A stretch of DNA of 20,575 bases from a virus. Positions within the stretch are counted from its first letter, which is position 1; the number at the start of each line of letters is the position of its first letter. The notes beneath the pieces are model-generated. The model was not told the DNA's origin and made no database searches. It worked only from the letters and a program-made list of their open reading frames with translations. This document shows positions 1 to 11,845 of the stretch, in pieces. The position numbers were made by a program, and so were the translations under genes. Location: the IMG/VR virus record IMGVR_UViG_3300020193_000694, positions 1-20,575 of that record. The stretch is one strand, 5' to 3'.

Positions 1-4
1 CGCT

Positions 5-112
5 GAGGCGGTCATGAAATGAGGCGCGCGTCTCTTGAGTGCGACACTCACGCGCTATAGAGATAGTTAGCGGACAGACCGCCTCGCATACCACATGTGG
101 GGCGGTTTTGTC
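5..112 (+). ncRNA. Candidate structured RNA with two mutually exclusive folds
   Basis: No gene is evident here, but complementary segments are dense. Bases 5-13 (GAGGCGGTC) pair perfectly with 77-85 (GACCGCCTC). Inside, 26-30 (GCGCG) pairs with 51-55 and 36-41 (TGAGTG) with 45-50 around a CGA loop. The bulged TCTCT at 31-35 could pair with AGAGA at 59-63, which would make a pseudoknot. The 3' strand of the outer stem can instead join a long hairpin: 73-88 pairs with 96-112 (about 16 pairs, three wobbles, one bulge, loop 89-95). The two folds cannot coexist. A strong terminator follows at 133-163, so an attenuator or riboswitch-like leader, or a structured 3' UTR of an upstream gene, is possible. 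It does not fold as a canonical tRNA: there is no T-loop and no CCA end. The pairings are seen; the function is inference. Confidence 0.4.
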
Positions 113-132
113 AAATTGAGCGTGTTTTTCCT

Positions 133-163
133 GGGGCAGGGGGCAACCTCTGCCCCTTTTTTT
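133..163 (+). terminator. Strong rho-independent terminator
   Basis: A 10-bp stem pairs 133-142 (GGGGCAGGGG) with 147-156 (CCTCTGCCCC) and contains one G-T wobble. The loop is GCAA, a stable GNRA tetraloop, and seven T residues follow at 157-163. This is a textbook intrinsic terminator on the + strand. It probably ends transcription arriving from genes left of the window, separating them from the packaging and structural operon. Confidence 0.87.
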
Positions 164-198
164 GCGTCCGCGCCCTAGCGAACCCCAGGGTTTTTTAA

Positions 199-222
199 GG
201 GGGCCCCACCCCCCTCCCCCCC
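199..222. other. G5/C-run tract with G-quadruplex potential on the minus strand
   Basis: The + strand reads G5, C4, A, C6, T, C7. The minus strand therefore carries runs of seven, six and four G with one-base spacers, enough for four G-triplets in a row and so a potential G-quadruplex (an i-motif on the + strand). GGGGCCCC within it is also self-complementary. Long homopolymer runs of this kind are rare elsewhere in the window. A role in replication, packaging or transcription is inference only. Confidence 0.5.
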
Positions 223-367
223 TATCAGCTAAAAAATTTTCACCAGGAAACCACTCTGACCAGCACTTTTGTTATACCAAGAAAAAAAGTTTTATTTTGC
301 TCTTGAAACACGCCGATGCTCTAGTCCCCTATATAAGTGTAACGGCTGAGTTATACGAAGCCGTAGA

Positions 368-461: not shown

Positions 462-2351
462 TTGGAAAGAAATTTAACCCCCGAAGAGGCCAGGAAAGAG
501 CTAATCGATTTGGTGCGCCAAGGGCGCACTATTACCGATGCCCTAAGGGTTATTGGTAGGAGTCGTTCTTGGTATGACACCCAACGGCGCGAAGCCGAAG
601 GCTTCGCTGCCTATATAGACAATGCTCGGTTAAGAACCTCTGACTTGGTTGGCGAAGCTCGTTCTAGTCTAAAGGACTTCGCGAGCTTCTCTGAGACTTA
701 CTTGGCTACTAAGGTTTGGGACCACATGCTCAACGTGGTTGACATGTTAGAAGGCAAAGAACCTCGCTGGTTACATCCAGCAATGACCTATGAGAGAGGG
801 TCGGCGGGATTGTCCCGTCTCTTGGTAAATACGCCCCCTAACCATGCCAAGACCATGACAATCACCATAAACTACGTGACTTACCGCGTAGTTCAAAACC
901 CGAACATAAACGTAATCTTAATTTCTAAAACCCAGGAGCAAGCTAAAAAGTTTCTCTACGCTATTAAGCAAAGATTGACCCATCCACGTTATGCCGACCT
1001 ACAGGCTGGGTTTGGTCCTAACGATGGGTACAGAGCAACCTCCGACCAATGGTCGGCAAACAAGATTTATCTGAGCGCAGATATTCGCGAGTCGGATTCT
1101 AAGGACCCAACGATTGAGGCAATCGGTATGGGTGGGCAAATCTACGGTGCTCGCGCTGACTTAATCGTACTTGATGACGTTGTTACACTCTCTAACTCGG
1201 CAGAGTGGGCTAAACAACAAGAATGGATTCGACAAGAAGTTGCCAGCCGTCTTCCACCAGGCGGAGGGCAACTTCTTGTTGTCGGAACTAGGGTCTCTGC
1301 AGTAGACCTATATAAAGAACTACGCAACCCACAGCATTACACGGACGGAATCGTACCGTGGTCATATTTGTCCATGCCTGCCGTATTAGAATACGCAGAC
1401 AATCCAGAGGATTGGAAAACTCTCTGGGAAAAGTCGGAACAACCCCTCATTGAGAATGATATTCCAGATGAGAATGGTTACTTTGACCGATGGACAGGAC
1501 CGCGTCTAACAGCGGTCCGCAACGAGGCTGGTCCATCCAAATGGAGTTTGGTCTACCAGAATCTCGATATTGCAGAGAATGCAATCTTCGACCCGATATG
1601 CGTTAGAGGCGCAGTTAATGGAATGAGAAAATCGGGTGCGCTGGTTGCAGGCGCTGCTGGTCACCCTGATAATTCGCAGAACTTCTACCGAATCATTGGT
1701 ATCGACCCTGCTATGTCTGGTGACACCGCAGCAGTTGCCTACGCAGTTGACCGCAGAACGCAAAAGCGCTATGTCATGGACGTTTACGTCATGAGCAGCC
1801 CCACACCTGCAGCAATTAGGACTCTGATTCGAGAATGGACCGATGCCTACAAACCACATACGGTTATTGTTGAGTCGAATGCTTTTCAGCTTTTCTTGAC
1901 AAAGGATGAGGAGATTAGAAACTTCCTATCCACTCGCGGTATCAACTACCGCCCACACTACACGGGCAACAATAAGCAAGACCCAGAGTTTGGTGTAGCT
2001 TCTCTGGCTCCCCTGTTTGGAACTATTGTCAAACGTGATGGCAATAATAATAACTTAAAGCATGCTGGTGACCATATGATTGAATTACCAGATTCTTCAC
2101 GTAACGAACATGTAAAAAAATTAATAGAACAACTGGTTGTTTGGCAACCAGGGGTACAAGGCAAAAAACTTAAGATGGATGCTGTAATGGCATTATGGTT
2201 CTGTGAAATCGTAGGCCGCGATGTATTGCTTACCGCCTCAAACGTACCCAATTTTATGAAAAATGAATTTACGCCTTCTAAGGCGATTGAGGACAGATAC
2301 ATCATTAACTTAGATGACTTAGCCGCAGCACAGCGATTAGTGAGATTATGA
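462..2351 (+). CDS. terL: Terminase large subunit (packaging ATPase and nuclease)
   Basis: This is the motor that pumps DNA through the portal into the prohead and cuts the concatemer. The 629-residue length fits the family. The ATPase half shows a Walker A-like loop TPPNHAKT (124-131), of the PPxHxKS/T type, and Walker B ADLIVLDDV (232-240) with D238/D239. The RNase H-like nuclease half shows IIGIDPAMSGD (411-421, D415), TVIVESN (467-473, E471) and KMDAVMALW (571-579, D573), giving the expected acidic metal-binding triad. The start is TTG at 462, with GGAG at 453-456 at good spacing. No other start codon lies between it and the in-frame TAG at 435, and the next Met is about residue 89, beyond much of the N-terminal domain. 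The stop overlaps the portal start as ATGA. No small terminase is visible upstream, though residues 1-60 contain a small helical segment that could be DNA-binding. Confidence 0.95.
   Translation: MERNLTPEEARKELIDLVRQGRTITDALRVIGRSRSWYDTQRREAEGFAAYIDNARLRTSDLVGEARSSLKDFASFSETYLATKVWDHMLNVVDMLEGKEPRWLHPAMTYERGSAGLSRLLVNTPPNHAKTMTITINYVTYRVVQNPNINVILISKTQEQAKKFLYAIKQRLTHPRYADLQAGFGPNDGYRATSDQWSANKIYLSADIRESDSKDPTIEAIGMGGQIYGARADLIVLDDVVTLSNSAEWAKQQEWIRQEVASRLPPGGGQLLVVGTRVSAVDLYKELRNPQHYTDGIVPWSYLSMPAVLEYADNPEDWKTLWEKSEQPLIENDIPDENGYFDRWTGPRLTAVRNEAGPSKWSLVYQNLDIAENAIFDPICVRGAVNGMRKSGALVAGAAGHPDNSQNFYRIIGIDPAMSGDTAAVAYAVDRRTQKRYVMDVYVMSSPTPAAIRTLIREWTDAYKPHTVIVESNAFQLFLTKDEEIRNFLSTRGINYRPHYTGNNKQDPEFGVASLAPLFGTIVKRDGNNNNLKHAGDHMIELPDSSRNEHVKKLIEQLVVWQPGVQGKKLKMDAVMALWFCEIVGRDVLLTASNVPNFMKNEFTPSKAIEDRYIINLDDLAAAQRLVRL
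589..607 (+). other. Perfect 8-bp hairpin in the early terL coding region
   Basis: GCGAAGCC (589-596) pairs with GGCTTCGC (600-607) around GAA. It lies about 43 codons into terL and encodes part of RREAEGFAA. It could be coincidental, or an mRNA structure that slows early translation. No T-tract follows. Confidence 0.4.
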
Positions 2352-4299: not shown

Positions 4300-4653
4300 A
4301 TGGCACGTGGGAAGAAGAAACCTGCTCTCGCAAAAAAACTCACACAGCTACAAAAACAAGGGGCAGGCGAGAGACTTGGCTTCGGGGACGCAGAACGTGG
4401 TCGTACAATATCTCGTAGCCAAAAAGCCAAAGCCGCAAAACTCCCAACAAAAAAACTCCCAACACCGCTGCCCAAGCCAAAACCCGAAGCATGGGTCTGG
4501 GATACCTCTGTCTACCCTTGGCGCACAAAACAAGCAAAAGCTACCAACCTAAAGAGACAGCTTGGAAAGTCTATACCGATTGCTGATGCTACTGGCGAGC
4601 GTCGCCCTGATAGATGGATTAAAAAGCCTAGGCCAAAGCGTATCAAGGAGTAA
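4300..4653 (+). CDS. Small very basic protein, 117 aa, unknown function
   Basis: The N-terminal half is Lys/Arg/Ala-rich (MARGKKKPALAKKLTQLQKQ), a Pro/Lys linker follows near residues 47-62, and a Trp-containing patch WVWDTSVYPW lies near residues 65-74. The C-terminus is again basic (RWIKKPRPKRIKE). AGGA at 4289-4292 precedes the ATG. No catalytic motif or membrane segment is visible. The Trp patch is encoded by the second copy of the 19-bp repeat that also lies upstream of terL. It sits in a run of basic genes after the portal; binding to packaged DNA is a plausible inference but not shown. Confidence 0.75.
   Translation: MARGKKKPALAKKLTQLQKQGAGERLGFGDAERGRTISRSQKAKAAKLPTKKLPTPLPKPKPEAWVWDTSVYPWRTKQAKATNLKRQLGKSIPIADATGERRPDRWIKKPRPKRIKE
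4499..4517 (+). repeat. 19-bp exact direct repeat, copy 2
   Basis: This is identical to 411-429 and in the same orientation, but lies inside a coding region, where it encodes most of WDTSVYP. It is about 145 bases upstream of the LysM gene start. The reading frame and the site could both be under selection. Confidence 0.7.
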
Positions 4654-4662
4654 AGGAAAATT

Positions 4663-6330
4663 ATGGCGAATAAAACACCAAAGAAGCCAAAGAAGCCAAA
4701 GAAGTTTCGTCAGGCTAGAAAAGACGCTAAAGCCGATTCTAAAAAAGTGTTTACTGGTAAACGCAAGGCTTTTGTTAAGGATAAAACCGTAAGACTTACT
4801 GCAAGTGACCAAGAGGTTCTTAGGGAAATTAGGAAAGAAGCTAGAGGCGGTTACCTAACCACAGATACTGGCGAGCGTGTATATTCAAAACCTACCGAAA
4901 CCTCACAAGAACGTATTGCACGTGAACGTGCAGAGTCTATGCGTAAATACCGTGAGCCACCGCTTCGCGGCCCAGGTGCAGAAGAAGATGGCAAAAAGCC
5001 AAAGAAGAAAGCTACTAAAGAGGTTGCCAAGAAACCTGCAGTTGAGAAACCTGCTGCCAGTAGAGGGAAAGCGATGCAAAAGTATCCAAATGCTAAGCCA
5101 ATTGGAACCATCTCATTTAAAGATGGCAAGATGGTTTTTAAAGGATTCAAAAAGGATACACCACCAGCTAAATCTGAAATGACTCGTGCGGAACGTTCCG
5201 CTGCTAATAAAGCTGCATGGAAAAATATGACCCCAGCAGAACGCAAGAATTGGGCTGTTAATAAACCATCCGCCAAGGAAAAATCTGCTGCCAAATTACC
5301 TGCTGATACAAAAGAAGCTAAGCTTGTAGAAAAACATGGAACAAAAAAGGGAAAAGCAGTATACAAAAAAAATGTAAAGAAGCCTACTAGGGCTGAAAAA
5401 TCTGCTGCTAATAAAGCTGCATGGAAGAATATGACTCCAGAACAGCGCAAAAACTGGAAAGTTACTAGACCAGGCGCTAAGCCCGCAGCAGCAGCTCCAA
5501 AAACTGCACCCGTGCAAAGTGTTACAAACGTACAGCCAGAAAAAGCAGGTAAAGGAACCACAAAGCCAAAGTTCGTACAGAAGAAAACCAAGGCTGGTGT
5601 TGCTAAGACAACCACTGCTGCACCTAAAACTGGTGGCACTGTAGCGGTTCGTCCAAAAGGAACTGTAGCAAGCGCACGTACAGGTACAGTAGCAACAACT
5701 ACGAAGAAAGCAACACCTATTAAAGGCAGCGACACAGTCGTTAAGAAGAAGGGTCTCTTACGCAGGGCAGGCGGAGCGTTTGTTCCACTTATAGTCGGCG
5801 GAGAAGTTGTTTCGCTTGCTAAAGGTTCTACATTTAAAGACCTTAGAGAGATTAACCGTCTAAAGAAAAAGCTTGGCGATAAGAAGATGAGCGCTAAAGA
5901 AGGTATATCTACACAGGCAAGCAATCTTGCAGCTCTTTTAGCCATGGGTCTAGGAGCTGGAGCAGGTCTACAGACACGTCGTGAACGTATGGATGAACTT
6001 AATCGCTTAATAAAGAAGAACGCACCTAAAGAACTTCGCTACGGCAAAGATGGTTCATCTCTTGTTCCAGGAACTGCAGCATATAAGGCTGGTTCTAAGA
6101 CAATGCCACCCTATGGTGGGGCTAAAGGCGGTGGCTCAAGTGGTGGTGGCTCAAGTACTAAAGGCGTGTACACCGTTAAGAAGGGCGATACCCTGTGGGG
6201 TATTGCTAAAGCAAACAATACAACGGTTGCAGCGCTTCGTGAAGCAAATCCTAAATTCATGAAACGTAAAAAGTACAAGCAAGGCAACATGATTTGGTCA
6301 GGAACAACGGTAAAGATTCCGAAGAAATAG
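4663..6330 (+). CDS. Lysine-rich virion-type protein with C-terminal LysM domain
   Basis: The 555-residue product starts with a strongly basic region (PKKPKKPKK near residues 6-14). It carries two copies of a ~30-residue repeat at 174-203 and 242-271, sharing SAANKAAWKNMTP. Residues 371-385 and 418-436 are hydrophobic (AFVPLIVGGEVVSLA; QASNLAALLAMGLGAGAGL) and might insert into a membrane. A GGGSSGGGSS linker (489-498) leads to a LysM domain at about 502-553: YTVKKGDTLWGIAKANNTTVAALREANP, ending GTTVKIP. LysM domains bind the GlcNAc-containing glycan of peptidoglycan. No hydrolase domain is visible, so it is not evidently a lysin. With the portal just upstream and probable ejection proteins downstream, a virion protein that engages the cell wall during infection is the best inference. 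AGGA at 4654-4657 precedes the ATG. Confidence 0.85.
   Translation: MANKTPKKPKKPKKFRQARKDAKADSKKVFTGKRKAFVKDKTVRLTASDQEVLREIRKEARGGYLTTDTGERVYSKPTETSQERIARERAESMRKYREPPLRGPGAEEDGKKPKKKATKEVAKKPAVEKPAASRGKAMQKYPNAKPIGTISFKDGKMVFKGFKKDTPPAKSEMTRAERSAANKAAWKNMTPAERKNWAVNKPSAKEKSAAKLPADTKEAKLVEKHGTKKGKAVYKKNVKKPTRAEKSAANKAAWKNMTPEQRKNWKVTRPGAKPAAAAPKTAPVQSVTNVQPEKAGKGTTKPKFVQKKTKAGVAKTTTAAPKTGGTVAVRPKGTVASARTGTVATTTKKATPIKGSDTVVKKKGLLRRAGGAFVPLIVGGEVVSLAKGSTFKDLREINRLKKKLGDKKMSAKEGISTQASNLAALLAMGLGAGAGLQTRRERMDELNRLIKKNAPKELRYGKDGSSLVPGTAAYKAGSKTMPPYGGAKGGGSSGGGSSTKGVYTVKKGDTLWGIAKANNTTVAALREANPKFMKRKKYKQGNMIWSGTTVKIPKK
5182..5475 (+). repeat. Two ~90-bp coding repeats in the LysM gene
   Basis: The copies lie at about 5182-5271 and 5386-5475. 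They encode TRAE(R/K)SAANKAAWKNMTP followed by (A/E)(E/Q)RKNW. DNA identity is high in the core (GCTGCTAATAAAGCTGCATG in both) and fades toward the ends. This looks like an internal duplication with about 115 intervening bases. The unit resembles HMG-box-like or histone-tail-like basic motifs only in composition. Confidence 0.65.
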
Positions 6331-6776: not shown

Positions 6777-6939
6777 AGAAAATCTTGAATACCTTGGATT
6801 TGATATGGCTCCGCTGGCATGGGATTTAGCGCGTTTTCCGTTTGATTCTGACGATGACCGATACGCAATGTTAGAGGAATTGACAGAAAAACAGGAGGCT
6901 ACACTTAATGAGTCTACAAGACCCATATGGAGACAATAA
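6754..6939 (+). CDS. Small protein, 61 aa, unknown function
   Basis: The frame opens as far back as TTG at 6727, but ATG at 6754 has a good GGAG (6742-6745) eight bases upstream and is preferred. The product, MKIFRKFEENLEYLGFDMAP..., is acidic overall and predicted helical (LEELTEKQE), with no membrane segment or known motif. It overlaps the preceding gene by 23 bases and the following one by 32, which suggests translational coupling. No family is recognised. Confidence 0.65.
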   Translation: MKIFRKFEENLEYLGFDMAPLAWDLARFPFDSDDDRYAMLEELTEKQEATLNESTRPIWRQ

Positions 6940-9900
6940 GTATTATGAAGAAAATAAGCCTCAGGGTCCAATATCTAAAATAGACAAGTTTAAGAAGCAA
7001 CAATTTGATGATACCAAAGTCGGTAAAATAGAAGAAGCAATAATCCCTAAAGTTGCTAGCGCTATCGAATCAGGTAAAAAGGGCAGGTTTGGTTGGTTCG
7101 TAAATCCTGCAATGGGAATTGTTGAAGGTATTAGTAAACATGTGATACAACCGCTAACCCAAGGAATATCCACAGCATTGCTTACGCCACAAGCAATGAT
7201 GGCTGGCAAAGGTAACCCTATACAAAGTTTTCGTTTTGCCAAAGAGCAATCTAAAAGAATTTCTTACGGCGCAGCTCTTGCAACTACTGCGGGTCAATTT
7301 GTCAGTCCTTACTTACCAGACCAGATTACTCCAACTTTCATGGATGACAATTTTGATATCTTTAATGACAAGCAACGCGACAGAGCGTTTCGCGATGAGT
7401 GGATTGGTATATTTGCATCTGGGGGAACTGATTTAGCAGGCGCAATTCTTGGGACCAAAGGTACTGGTATTGCAATGAGGGCGGGAGCTCGCAAAACCAT
7501 AGGCCCAAAAAAGATTGTCACTACCGAGGATATGAACAAGTTCAAGGCCGAACTTGAAGATGCTGTTTCTCAGCAAGCTTTACCAGTCGAGCAAAGAACT
7601 AGAACTGGTCTTACCATTCTTTTTGACGACCTGGTCGCAGAAAAAGATTTGTCTAAGTTATCTACCAACCCATTTATATTGGAATCTAATAATCCTTATA
7701 GGACAGCGACCATAATTTCCAGATTAGATAACCATAGGGATGTAGCCGATTATCTCATGGCAGAACGTGGAGATAACGCAGCGTTTTTAAGATTCATGGA
7801 AAGCAATCCACTTAAAGCTGACCATTTAGATAACTATGGAATTGTATTAACAAAACCTATTTCAGATTTTGCAGATGTTGGACTAGATGAATTAAGCCCA
7901 AAACTAACCCAACGGTATCAAAAAGTAATTGATGCTAAAAAAGCAACCGATAGGGATTTTGCTGATGCGTTAGAAGACATGTTGACCAGTAAAACAGTTG
8001 AAAATTACCGTCCTGGTAAATATGCTGCTTTAGAAACTTTAGATTTGACTAGAAGAAAAATAGCTAATCAAGCACAGTATGGCGATTTAAAATTATTTGG
8101 GGCAGAGGGTAATAACGCTTGGAAAGTTTCGGTTTATCAATCAGAACCGTATGACCGAATGATTCGTCTTATTTCTTGGATGGGCTCTGGAAGACCGCAG
8201 GGTCATATTAATGTTTCTAATCCGCGTAAATTTGAGGCAGCATCTGATTTAAGGTCTGACCTAAATCGCATTATGTTTCTTAAAGGGGCGGAAGGGGTAG
8301 TATATAAACGCAAAGCTGTAGATAGGTTTCTAAGAGCCCAAGATAATATAACTCGCACAATAGTATTAACAGAGATTGAGCAAGAAGTATTACAGATGAT
8401 GGCTAAACGTTATGGCGTAACGGATTTACAAGATGTTCGCACCATGGAACAAGCTATTGCAGAAATGAAAAGTTGGCATTTAGAAAAGTCTAACAAGCGT
8501 CAAGATATGAAATCTTACGCTGCTAAAAATGGTTACATTCCAGAAGATGGAGTCGTAAACGTGCAAAATTGGCTATCTCCAACAACCGAGCCGAACACTC
8601 TGCCAATGTTAGATTTTCGCAAACTAGAGCAAGATGTTATTATTCATTTAAAAGGCACGCCAAAGGTTTCGTCCAAGGATGTAACAAGAGCCAAAACCGC
8701 AAAAGTTGCAATGACGCTTGGTGAATTTTTTGATGTTGCAAATATGGCGTTTAGCAATATGAACCTCCTTCGCATTGCTTATATTCCTAAAAATTCAGGG
8801 GTTGACCCAATTGCTCGCGCAAGTATGGCTCTTGAATCCACGGAAATTATTCGTAACGCCCTACCTGGAATCAGTAACCTTTTATATAACAACTCACTTA
8901 GAGTAGAAAGATTAAAGAAGTTTATTCCAGGTAGCCCTAGATATAAAGCTCGTAAGATAGCAAAAGATGCCGAATTCAATATTAGAAAATTTCGACAGGA
9001 GATAGAACCTAAAGTCGTAATTTGGGAAAACGCAAAAAAAACAGCAGATGATGCAGATAAGATTTTAACTAAAGCTACCAGTACTCGTGACCGATTAGCT
9101 GCTAAAGCAGCTCGCAGCAATGACCCAGATATACACGCTGCAGCCCAGGAAGCCCAAGATAATTATTATAAGGCTGCTTCTGTATATAACCAGGCACAAA
9201 ACGCACTTACCAAATCTGCTGACGAAATGAATGGTTATGCCAAGCTTATTGAAGCAGAACAAAAAAGAATTACACCATTCGCTATTAGTGAAGGCGATTT
9301 AAAAAAAATCAAAACCCTTGGCATGGAAAAAGAAACAATAGTTAGTGCCAGCGGAAAGAAATATACGATTGCTGGATTAGCAGACCCTAACATTCGTGGC
9401 GTTAGCCCCTACATGGATGAAATTGACAGCAGTATTAATTTTTACGCAGCATCTATGCAATCAGAGATAAGCCGTAGGCTTAAATATGATAGTTCAAAGT
9501 TTGTAACCATCGCTCGAAACGAGGGTAAGCCATACTGGAATGGTTTGTCGCATTTAGCCAATAGGGAGATTCGCCAAGAATTAGATTTACCTTTAGGAAT
9601 GCTATTTAGGGGCGATAGTAAGGCTAACGTCTTGAATTGGTTATTTAGCTCCAAGGGTGCTAATTATCGAAAACGTTTACAAAAAGGATTTCACAGACCC
9701 AGACCACTTACACGAGATGAAGTTAGTGCTTGGATTGATGAAACCCAAGATACTCTTATGAGATATTTTCCAGACGAGAAACTTAGAGCCACCATATTAA
9801 CTCGCAATGTCAGTCCTAAAGAGGTAGAAAGTTTCTTGGGGGGTAGGCTAGATTTACCTAAAACCATTAAAGGACCCAATATAAAACTTAACGAATTAAA

Positions 9901-11845
9901 TTGGTTTGAAAAAAAATATGCACAAGTTACCGCAGGTTTTGATTTAGGCTGGAAGATATTATCCTATAGTGAAAATAGAATGGCTCGTAATCCATTATTT
10001 TTAATTTATGCCCGTCAAGAACTTAAGACTTTAATTAACTCAGCTGAACGTGCTGGACGTAAATTAGATACGCATTTCATAAATCATGAACTACGCGACG
10101 TTGCTATGCGTAACGCCCTGGCTCGCGTAGAACGTACGCTCTATTCTTCGCGTCGACTAACCAATGGTATGTATTTGGCGCGTTATGCCATGAGTTTCCC
10201 ATTAGCATTTTTCAATAGTCAATTAGTTGCAATGCGATTAATTGCCCGCAACCCGATTAATGCCTACTGGTATAACAGTATACAAACAGCGCTAGATGAT
10301 TTCCAAGCGTATGAAGACCGCGATGGTAATACCTATAAAAGCATCAGTGATGTTCCTAAAGGAACATCAGTAACTGTTAAGTTTCCATTACACGGAAAGA
10401 TACCTAATTGGGCTAGCGTCGATGCTTTAAAACCATATACCGATGTTCGTGGTGGCGGGCTTAGGGTAAATCCAAAACAATTAGAGTTTATGATTGCAGA
10501 CCCATCCGTTTCATGGTTTGGTGGCGCAACAATATCTCAATTAATTAAAAATGGTTTTGGTATAAGACCTTGGAAAGTATATGGTGAGGATATAGCCAAG
10601 GCTATGCGTAACTCACTTGGCGATGATATATATGAATCAAGTATACTTTATGGTGGTTATCCAGTTGAGGGCGAAAGCGCTATAGATACAGTATTTAATG
10701 TCATATTTCCAGGATATGGAAAATCAATTTTCGATGGATTTAGATTAATGTTTGGTGGTGGCTCAAACGGTTCAGAACGAGCATTGGATGAAATTGTAAA
10801 CCAATATAAGGTTGCTTACGCAGAATGGGACAGAAATGGTCGTTCTGGTAATCCGCCAACGCCAGAGCAGGCAGCTAAATCAGCTGGCGCAATGATGTTT
10901 ATTCGCGCTGTAGTTCAATTTAACGCAGCGATTGCTATTGGGTTTGACCCTGTCACCCGCGCTGCTACAGCGTATTATGCAGATTTGGTAGAGGAATTTA
11001 AAGGCGATTACGACATGGCTCAAAAAATTATGATTGAGCAATGGGGTGTAGATTCCTTAGCCTTAATTGGCTCAAGTAAACGCAACAACGCAGGTCTTGC
11101 AGCTACCAATAGCGATATAAAAATTATTCGTAATTTTGAAGGATTGCTTTCTGATATGGGTAGGTATGGGACAAAGTATGCAGGAATGCTTTCCTCAGGG
11201 TATGACAACGACTTAACCACCAATTCTAAATATTCTGCAGAAGTTGCAGCAATTTATAAAAGATTAAATTTTCCTGGCACGGTAGATTTACCAATAACCC
11301 AAAGAAAAAATATTTCTGGATTGGGTGGAATTAGAGAAGAGGTAGAGGCTCGACGCGGTTGGGCTGAATACCAAAAAGCTCAAGAATGGCGAGATGCGAT
11401 GATGTACCAATACGGCATCCGCTCAACCCAAGAGGTAATGTACGAACGTAGTGGAATCAAAGAATACTACGACAACATGGTTTACGATATTTCTAATCAA
11501 TTCCCAGGCTGGACTCAGGCTTATAATGACGGACGTGAAGATTATTGGCGCGGGCTTATTCCAACAGTTGAAAAGATTTCAAACGACACCAAATGGCGCA
11601 GTCATGCTTATAAAAACGGCGACAAGTGGGAAGAGATTGCTTACTGGCTAGAACAAGCTAAGAATTTTAAACGGTTATATAGCCAGACAGCCAACACAGA
11701 TGACCGCAAGCTTCGCCTTAAGACAGAGTTTGCACAGTTTCATTACGATTATCTACAGACGGCATCAGATGATTTTGCTGCTTTTGCTTATAGATGGTTA
11801 AACATCATGCCCGAATTAAACGAAGAGTTAGCGGTGAGAGAATAA
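6908..11845 (+). CDS. Giant virion protein, probable internal/ejection protein, 1645 aa
   Basis: At 1645 residues this is by far the largest product in the window. AGGAGG (6893-6898) gives a strong ribosome site. Visible features are: hydrophobic or amphipathic stretches near residues 66-102 (ending STALLTPQAMMAGKG) and 167-192 (SGGTDLAGAILGTKGTG); a charged Ala-rich probable coiled coil near 681-790; a hydrophobic segment near 1088-1118 (YLARYAMSFPLAFFNSQLVA); and another near 1330-1355. I see no lysozyme or transglycosylase catalytic motif and no single-subunit RNA polymerase motifs. Size, patchy hydrophobicity and position in the structural block fit a large internal virion protein ejected into the host. 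A tape-measure role is less likely because no tail-tube or tail-chaperone genes are seen. The gene is more AT-rich than the capsid or fibre genes. Confidence 0.7.
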   Translation: MSLQDPYGDNKYYEENKPQGPISKIDKFKKQQFDDTKVGKIEEAIIPKVASAIESGKKGRFGWFVNPAMGIVEGISKHVIQPLTQGISTALLTPQAMMAGKGNPIQSFRFAKEQSKRISYGAALATTAGQFVSPYLPDQITPTFMDDNFDIFNDKQRDRAFRDEWIGIFASGGTDLAGAILGTKGTGIAMRAGARKTIGPKKIVTTEDMNKFKAELEDAVSQQALPVEQRTRTGLTILFDDLVAEKDLSKLSTNPFILESNNPYRTATIISRLDNHRDVADYLMAERGDNAAFLRFMESNPLKADHLDNYGIVLTKPISDFADVGLDELSPKLTQRYQKVIDAKKATDRDFADALEDMLTSKTVENYRPGKYAALETLDLTRRKIANQAQYGDLKLFGAEGNNAWKVSVYQSEPYDRMIRLISWMGSGRPQGHINVSNPRKFEAASDLRSDLNRIMFLKGAEGVVYKRKAVDRFLRAQDNITRTIVLTEIEQEVLQMMAKRYGVTDLQDVRTMEQAIAEMKSWHLEKSNKRQDMKSYAAKNGYIPEDGVVNVQNWLSPTTEPNTLPMLDFRKLEQDVIIHLKGTPKVSSKDVTRAKTAKVAMTLGEFFDVANMAFSNMNLLRIAYIPKNSGVDPIARASMALESTEIIRNALPGISNLLYNNSLRVERLKKFIPGSPRYKARKIAKDAEFNIRKFRQEIEPKVVIWENAKKTADDADKILTKATSTRDRLAAKAARSNDPDIHAAAQEAQDNYYKAASVYNQAQNALTKSADEMNGYAKLIEAEQKRITPFAISEGDLKKIKTLGMEKETIVSASGKKYTIAGLADPNIRGVSPYMDEIDSSINFYAASMQSEISRRLKYDSSKFVTIARNEGKPYWNGLSHLANREIRQELDLPLGMLFRGDSKANVLNWLFSSKGANYRKRLQKGFHRPRPLTRDEVSAWIDETQDTLMRYFPDEKLRATILTRNVSPKEVESFLGGRLDLPKTIKGPNIKLNELNWFEKKYAQVTAGFDLGWKILSYSENRMARNPLFLIYARQELKTLINSAERAGRKLDTHFINHELRDVAMRNALARVERTLYSSRRLTNGMYLARYAMSFPLAFFNSQLVAMRLIARNPINAYWYNSIQTALDDFQAYEDRDGNTYKSISDVPKGTSVTVKFPLHGKIPNWASVDALKPYTDVRGGGLRVNPKQLEFMIADPSVSWFGGATISQLIKNGFGIRPWKVYGEDIAKAMRNSLGDDIYESSILYGGYPVEGESAIDTVFNVIFPGYGKSIFDGFRLMFGGGSNGSERALDEIVNQYKVAYAEWDRNGRSGNPPTPEQAAKSAGAMMFIRAVVQFNAAIAIGFDPVTRAATAYYADLVEEFKGDYDMAQKIMIEQWGVDSLALIGSSKRNNAGLAATNSDIKIIRNFEGLLSDMGRYGTKYAGMLSSGYDNDLTTNSKYSAEVAAIYKRLNFPGTVDLPITQRKNISGLGGIREEVEARRGWAEYQKAQEWRDAMMYQYGIRSTQEVMYERSGIKEYYDNMVYDISNQFPGWTQAYNDGREDYWRGLIPTVEKISNDTKWRSHAYKNGDKWEEIAYWLEQAKNFKRLYSQTANTDDRKLRLKTEFAQFHYDYLQTASDDFAAFAYRWLNIMPELNEELAVRE
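10348..10369 (+). other. Perfect inverted repeat inside the giant virion gene
   Basis: TGATGTTCC (10348-10356) pairs with GGAACATCA (10361-10369) around TAAA, the same loop as the hairpin at 368-387. It encodes part of SDVPKGTS. No T-tract follows, so it is not a terminator. A functional role is uncertain. Confidence 0.35.

Follow-up and report, generated by a model that had tools for sequence, protein, structure and literature searches.

Probable tandem terminators behind a conserved GATAGTYAG motif near the predicted genome end in a family of actinophage-like viruses

Introduction

The closest described counterparts of the element studied here are the tandem Rho-independent terminators of phage operons, in which GC-rich hairpins followed by a U tract lie behind a stop codon, two in tandem, and are maintained by compensatory change. 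The present locus shares these properties, and differs from such terminators in that the U tract of its first hairpin is weak and a conserved 9-nt motif precedes it. The "I-shaped" terminators of mycobacteria, which lack a poly-U tail, offer a second comparison (PMC12288462): a strong hairpin with little U stands near the stop codon, as does the first hairpin here (T1). Unlike those terminators, T1, whose role in termination is putative, has a U-rich terminator behind it in every case. At the level of genome architecture, the right genome ends of phages Manuel and FlowerPower resemble our locus in having a CCCCRGGGTTNTTAA-type box near the genome end and upstream of the gene for the terminase large subunit (TerL), and their TerL proteins are 42-43% identical to ours, whereas no unit of GATAGTYAG and two hairpins was seen on reading the FlowerPower end.

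The stretch of DNA analysed (hereafter the window) spans the complete linear record of a virus (IMG/VR IMGVR_UViG_3300020193_000694; 20,575 bases), and the element under study lies at its left edge, ahead of TerL. An earlier reading of the letters alone had proposed a switch-like RNA with two mutually exclusive folds and a terminator, with a structured 3' UTR as fallback. Here, we find the fallback to be essentially correct. The element sits behind a gene and before the predicted genome end and a separate late leader.

Results and discussion

TerL is the first long gene of the window (462-2351), with portal and major head protein genes downstream, and its product is 42-45% identical to the TerL of the Streptomyces phages FlowerPower and Manuel (Beephvirinae) and of OX376640 and OX376641. 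The first of these two accessions is labelled LanE43-AprE7, which is also the name of a phage of the freshwater actinobacterium 'Ca. Planktophila' that has been brought into culture (PMC10202952). The element is most likely an ordinary pair of terminator hairpins that follow a small gene at the end of a genome of freshwater actinophage type. Further into the window, a single gene of 1645 codons (6908-11845) matches PHROG 10618 (unknown function) over its whole length.

A TerL search of IMG/VR yielded 216 relatives; 80 loci were retrieved, and more loci were added from other scans. The corresponding region is contained in 60 distinct relatives, with L135 and L143 excluded as chance matches; this and all later counts refer to related sequences and do not represent independent events. 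The order of features is constant in the 60 relatives, approximately 420 nt upstream of TerL: a + strand stop codon, GATAGTYAG, T1, a spacer, a second hairpin (T2) with its U tract, a CCCCAGGGTTTTTTAA-like box, a C-rich tract, a promoter-like block, a leader and TerL (Table 1). No DNA match to the region was found among phage and plasmid records.

Table 1 Features at the left edge of the window
Feature	Position	Strand	Remarks
Probable last codons of upstream gene	1..22	+	Frame 2, ...AEAVMK-stop, direct reading; contains the 5-13 arm
Alternative arm, complementary to 77-85	5..13	+	GAGGCGGTC; private to the window sequence
Part of the 3' UTR in which two small hairpins compete (26-55 or 30-64)	26..64	+	Unconserved
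Conserved motif GATAGTYAG	62..70	+	Here GATAGTTAG; between stop codon and T1
Hairpin T1	73..112	+	Stem 78-89/95-106, lower stem 73-76/109-112, short U run 106-109
Putative intrinsic terminator T2	133..163	+	Stem 133-142/147-156, loop 143-146, U7 157-163
Genome-end box CCCCAGGGTTTTTTAA	183..198	+	Similar to box CCCCRGGGTTGTTAA in Manuel and FlowerPower
C-rich tract, predicted packaging end near 221	199..221	.	Relatives' contigs end or begin here
Promoter-like block TTGAAA ... TATATAAG	303..337	+	Before TerL leader; conserved in 55-64 of 64 relatives

The first bases of the window probably represent the 3' end of a + strand gene truncated by the start of the record. Its reading frame stops at 20-22, and the terminal AEAVMK resembles the VVMKR ending that is common in the relatives' genes at this place. 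In most relatives the homologue of window 1-58 belongs to the 3' end of a + strand frame, with a stop codon that abuts GATAGT or lies a short way ahead of it. One relative (L002) has a single + strand frame of 88 codons (5312-5578) just ahead of T1, and the frames to its left lie on the minus strand; seven others have an open + frame of 82-99 codons at the same place. The 88-codon gene had no Pfam match and a marginal PHROG match. An exact IMG/VR search for the window's nested hairpin sequence gave no match, nor did one for its variant of the motif, so that no relative with the same 1-58 was found, and BLAST of window 1-62 against all loci returned only pieces of 12-17 nt.

Behind this probable gene end, the fold of window 1-170 is markedly more stable than its shuffles (z = -5.2). 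The hairpin originally placed at 78-88/96-106 is present and extends by one pair towards the loop (78-89/95-106), giving T1 a GC-rich 12-bp stem with a loop at 90-94 and a possible lower stem. T2 has 10 bp, of which eight are GC pairs, followed by T7; it was the top terminator-like match of our scan, in agreement with the strong terminator first noticed there. The two hairpins differ in what follows the stem: among 43 relatives, T1 has 1-5 U in the next 8 nt, and T2 is followed by at least six T in 43 of 43. T2 thus has the form of a canonical intrinsic terminator, at which transcription would be expected to end in the cell. The U tract of T1 is weak by E. coli standards, which leaves the strength of T1 as a terminator uncertain, but T1 resembles the U-poor mycobacterial terminators (PMC12288462).

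In both hairpins it is the structure that is retained; the sequences vary, and whole hairpins are exchanged. The RNAalifold consensus from a MAFFT alignment of the 43 non-redundant sequences, which were selected by the motif, was weak because the T1 arms shift register, and a comparison of own with swapped arms was used instead. T1 folded with z < -2 against shuffles in 41 of the 43 sequences, and its own arms beat swapped arms in all 36 distinct pairs (mean -25.7 versus -16.0 kcal/mol). The same held for T2 in 34 of 34 distinct pairs (-20.2 versus -12.0 kcal/mol), and the own-arm totals of either hairpin were reached by none of 5000 permutations. A strict alignment of the window and ten relatives is in partial agreement: T1 and T2 together pair in 81% of cells and 15 cells are changed on both sides, above any of 500 shuffles, although a slide of -2 columns gives a similar covariation score and the T1 arms shift register in this alignment. 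T2 is moreover represented by several unrelated hairpins (GGGGCAGGGG..., GGGGGC..GCCCCC, AAGCCCC..GGGGCTT, AGGCTCACGCA... and GCCTCACGC...), always with a U tract. Selection that acts on termination and not on sequence would be expected to replace whole hairpins at one position in this way.

The poor U tract past T1, and its start shortly past the stop codon in most relatives, would also suit a hairpin that mainly stabilises or processes the RNA 3' end, with T2 as the sole terminator. We consider this unlikely though credible: sequence cannot separate a stabilising role from termination, and U-poor terminators close behind stop codons have been described in mycobacteria (PMC12288462).

The original prediction saw in the region the layout of an attenuator or riboswitch; on such a reading, 5-13 would act as an antiterminator arm, competing with T1 for 77-85 and so controlling expression. 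We find that GAGGCGGTC is indeed the exact reverse complement of 77-85, and a Watson-Crick stem of at least 9 bp arose within 1-112 in only 0.6% of dinucleotide shuffles (p = 0.006); such a stem is rare in any one stretch that is singled out, but less rare when 20 kb are scanned by eye. Folding prediction further suggests that 5-13/77-85 forms transiently before T1 is complete, at transcript lengths of ~84-100 only. Once T1 is complete, however, forcing this pairing is 10.3 kcal/mol worse, with a pair probability of ~1e-7. Across the window and its 60 relatives (61 sequences), the 95 nt upstream of the T1 5' arm were examined for its best complement, which stood out against shuffles (p at most 0.05) in only one sequence, that of the window. 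When the window and ten relatives are aligned, 49.5% of cells pair between 5-13 and 77-85, no better than in controls slid by +1 (48.9%) or by -2 (53.3%). Covariation, proposed at the outset as the check on both stems, is borne out for 78-88/96-106, where compensatory change occurs, and not for 5-13/77-85.

The location also argues against such a switch. The element follows a stop codon instead of occupying the 5' leader of a controlled gene, and it is set apart from TerL by T2, by the predicted end of the genome and by a distinct promoter-like block. A coding gene through the region had been named in advance as evidence to the contrary, and most relatives come close to this, with a + strand frame in the homologous upstream region. 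No known RNA class had been recognised in the sequence; likewise, neither the window nor 12 relatives had an Rfam match at the gathering score, the only hits being at chance level (E of 0.7-5), and no tRNA or tmRNA was found. A switch is refuted for the family, the mutually exclusive folds being private to the window sequence, and we regard expression control by this route as exceedingly improbable.

Between the stop codon and the motif, the nested hairpin proposed at 26-55 stands as a possible competing fold; it is neither favoured nor conserved. In the minimum-energy fold, 30-35 is paired with 59-64 and 38-43 is paired with 51-56, and forcing 26-31/50-55 costs 5.7 kcal/mol (-46.8 versus -52.5). 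The complementarity of 31-35 to 59-63, taken at first for a possible pseudoknot, is part of this ordinary alternative helix (30-64), so that no pseudoknot is needed. Pairing of the nested hairpin holds in 47% of alignment cells, and that of its inner helix in 26%. A small third hairpin conserved just before the motif was considered and rejected for its weak signal: 8 of 43 sequences reached z < -2, versus 4 of 42 for a coding control.

The GATAGTYAG motif itself is nearly invariant among the relatives, in contrast to the hairpins beside it, which change freely. Allowing no more than one mismatch, GATAGTTA occurs in 62 of 64 relatives selected by TerL alone (a position-tolerant count), and GATAGT is invariant across the 43 non-redundant sequences, themselves selected by the motif. 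Exact or near matches to GATAGTYAG occur about once per genome, at this place. A 15-base motif search gave many chance matches outside the family, and we kept only those members that could be identified by the hairpins behind the motif; the window's own variant has no exact match in IMG/VR.

Downstream of T2, the box at 183-198 gives an indication of where the genome ends. The direct terminal repeats measure 253 bp in FlowerPower and 276 bp in Manuel, and in both phages CCCCRGGGTTGTTAA lies 23 nt (counted by eye) before the repeat end, a spacing that, applied to CCCCAGGGTTTTTTAA, predicts an end near 221. Contigs of three relatives stop 14-24 nt past the box, and several others start in the C-rich tract. 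Low read coverage of this tract could also break contigs, so a packaging end near 221 is only likely. Past this point, the consensus scan reported no sigma-70 site at 303-337 because the spacing between TTGAAA and TATATAAG is 21. Two small leader hairpins (340-386) lie between the promoter-like block and TerL. The TerL leader also contains a 19-nt stretch, GGGATACCTCTGTCTACC (410-429), that recurs nearly identically inside the ORF at 4300-4653 (4498-4517); the leader copy is conserved, and the second copy is absent from every relative checked.

With a predicted genome end ~60 nt past T2 and a nearly invariant motif at a single place, the motif and hairpins could conceivably function in packaging as DNA elements, for instance by being recognised by terminase at the right genome end. 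We hold this to be very unlikely, since in 43 of 43 sequences T2 has a U tract, as expected of an RNA terminator that works in one direction, a DNA recognition site would not predict whole-hairpin replacement, and the two-hairpin unit was not seen at the FlowerPower end. A related proposal is that GATAGTYAG and T1 form a cis-acting element of their own, either the site of an antitermination factor or a right-end terminase recognition site; this is quite unlikely. A plain terminator does not require GATAGTYAG, which counts against tandem terminators as a full account.

Considering the anatomy, the conservation, the compensatory changes and the whole-hairpin replacement observed across relatives, window 62-163 very probably makes up the 3' end of a short transcript that runs rightward, with GATAGTYAG and two tandem terminator hairpins. 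The + frames that end at or just before the motif in most relatives, together with the terminal box and contig ends just downstream, lend further support. We infer that a polymerase leaving the small upstream gene would meet T1, with its strong stem and weak U tract, and that one passing T1 would be halted at T2, with its strong stem and seven U. The transcript would thereby be kept from crossing the packaging end near 221 and, on circular or concatenated DNA, from entering the separately started terminase and structural operon.

Conclusions

The riboswitch proposed for this locus is settled as ordinary tandem terminators, at the high probability given above. The right end of this phage family would then consist of a small gene, the motif, two swappable terminators, a probable packaging end and a late leader. 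The nearly invariant 9-nt motif constitutes a testable element. If it proves to be cis-acting, it could, for example, be where a phage antitermination factor lets polymerase pass T1 and T2 into the late genes, and it would represent an element common to a widespread family of actinophage-like viruses.
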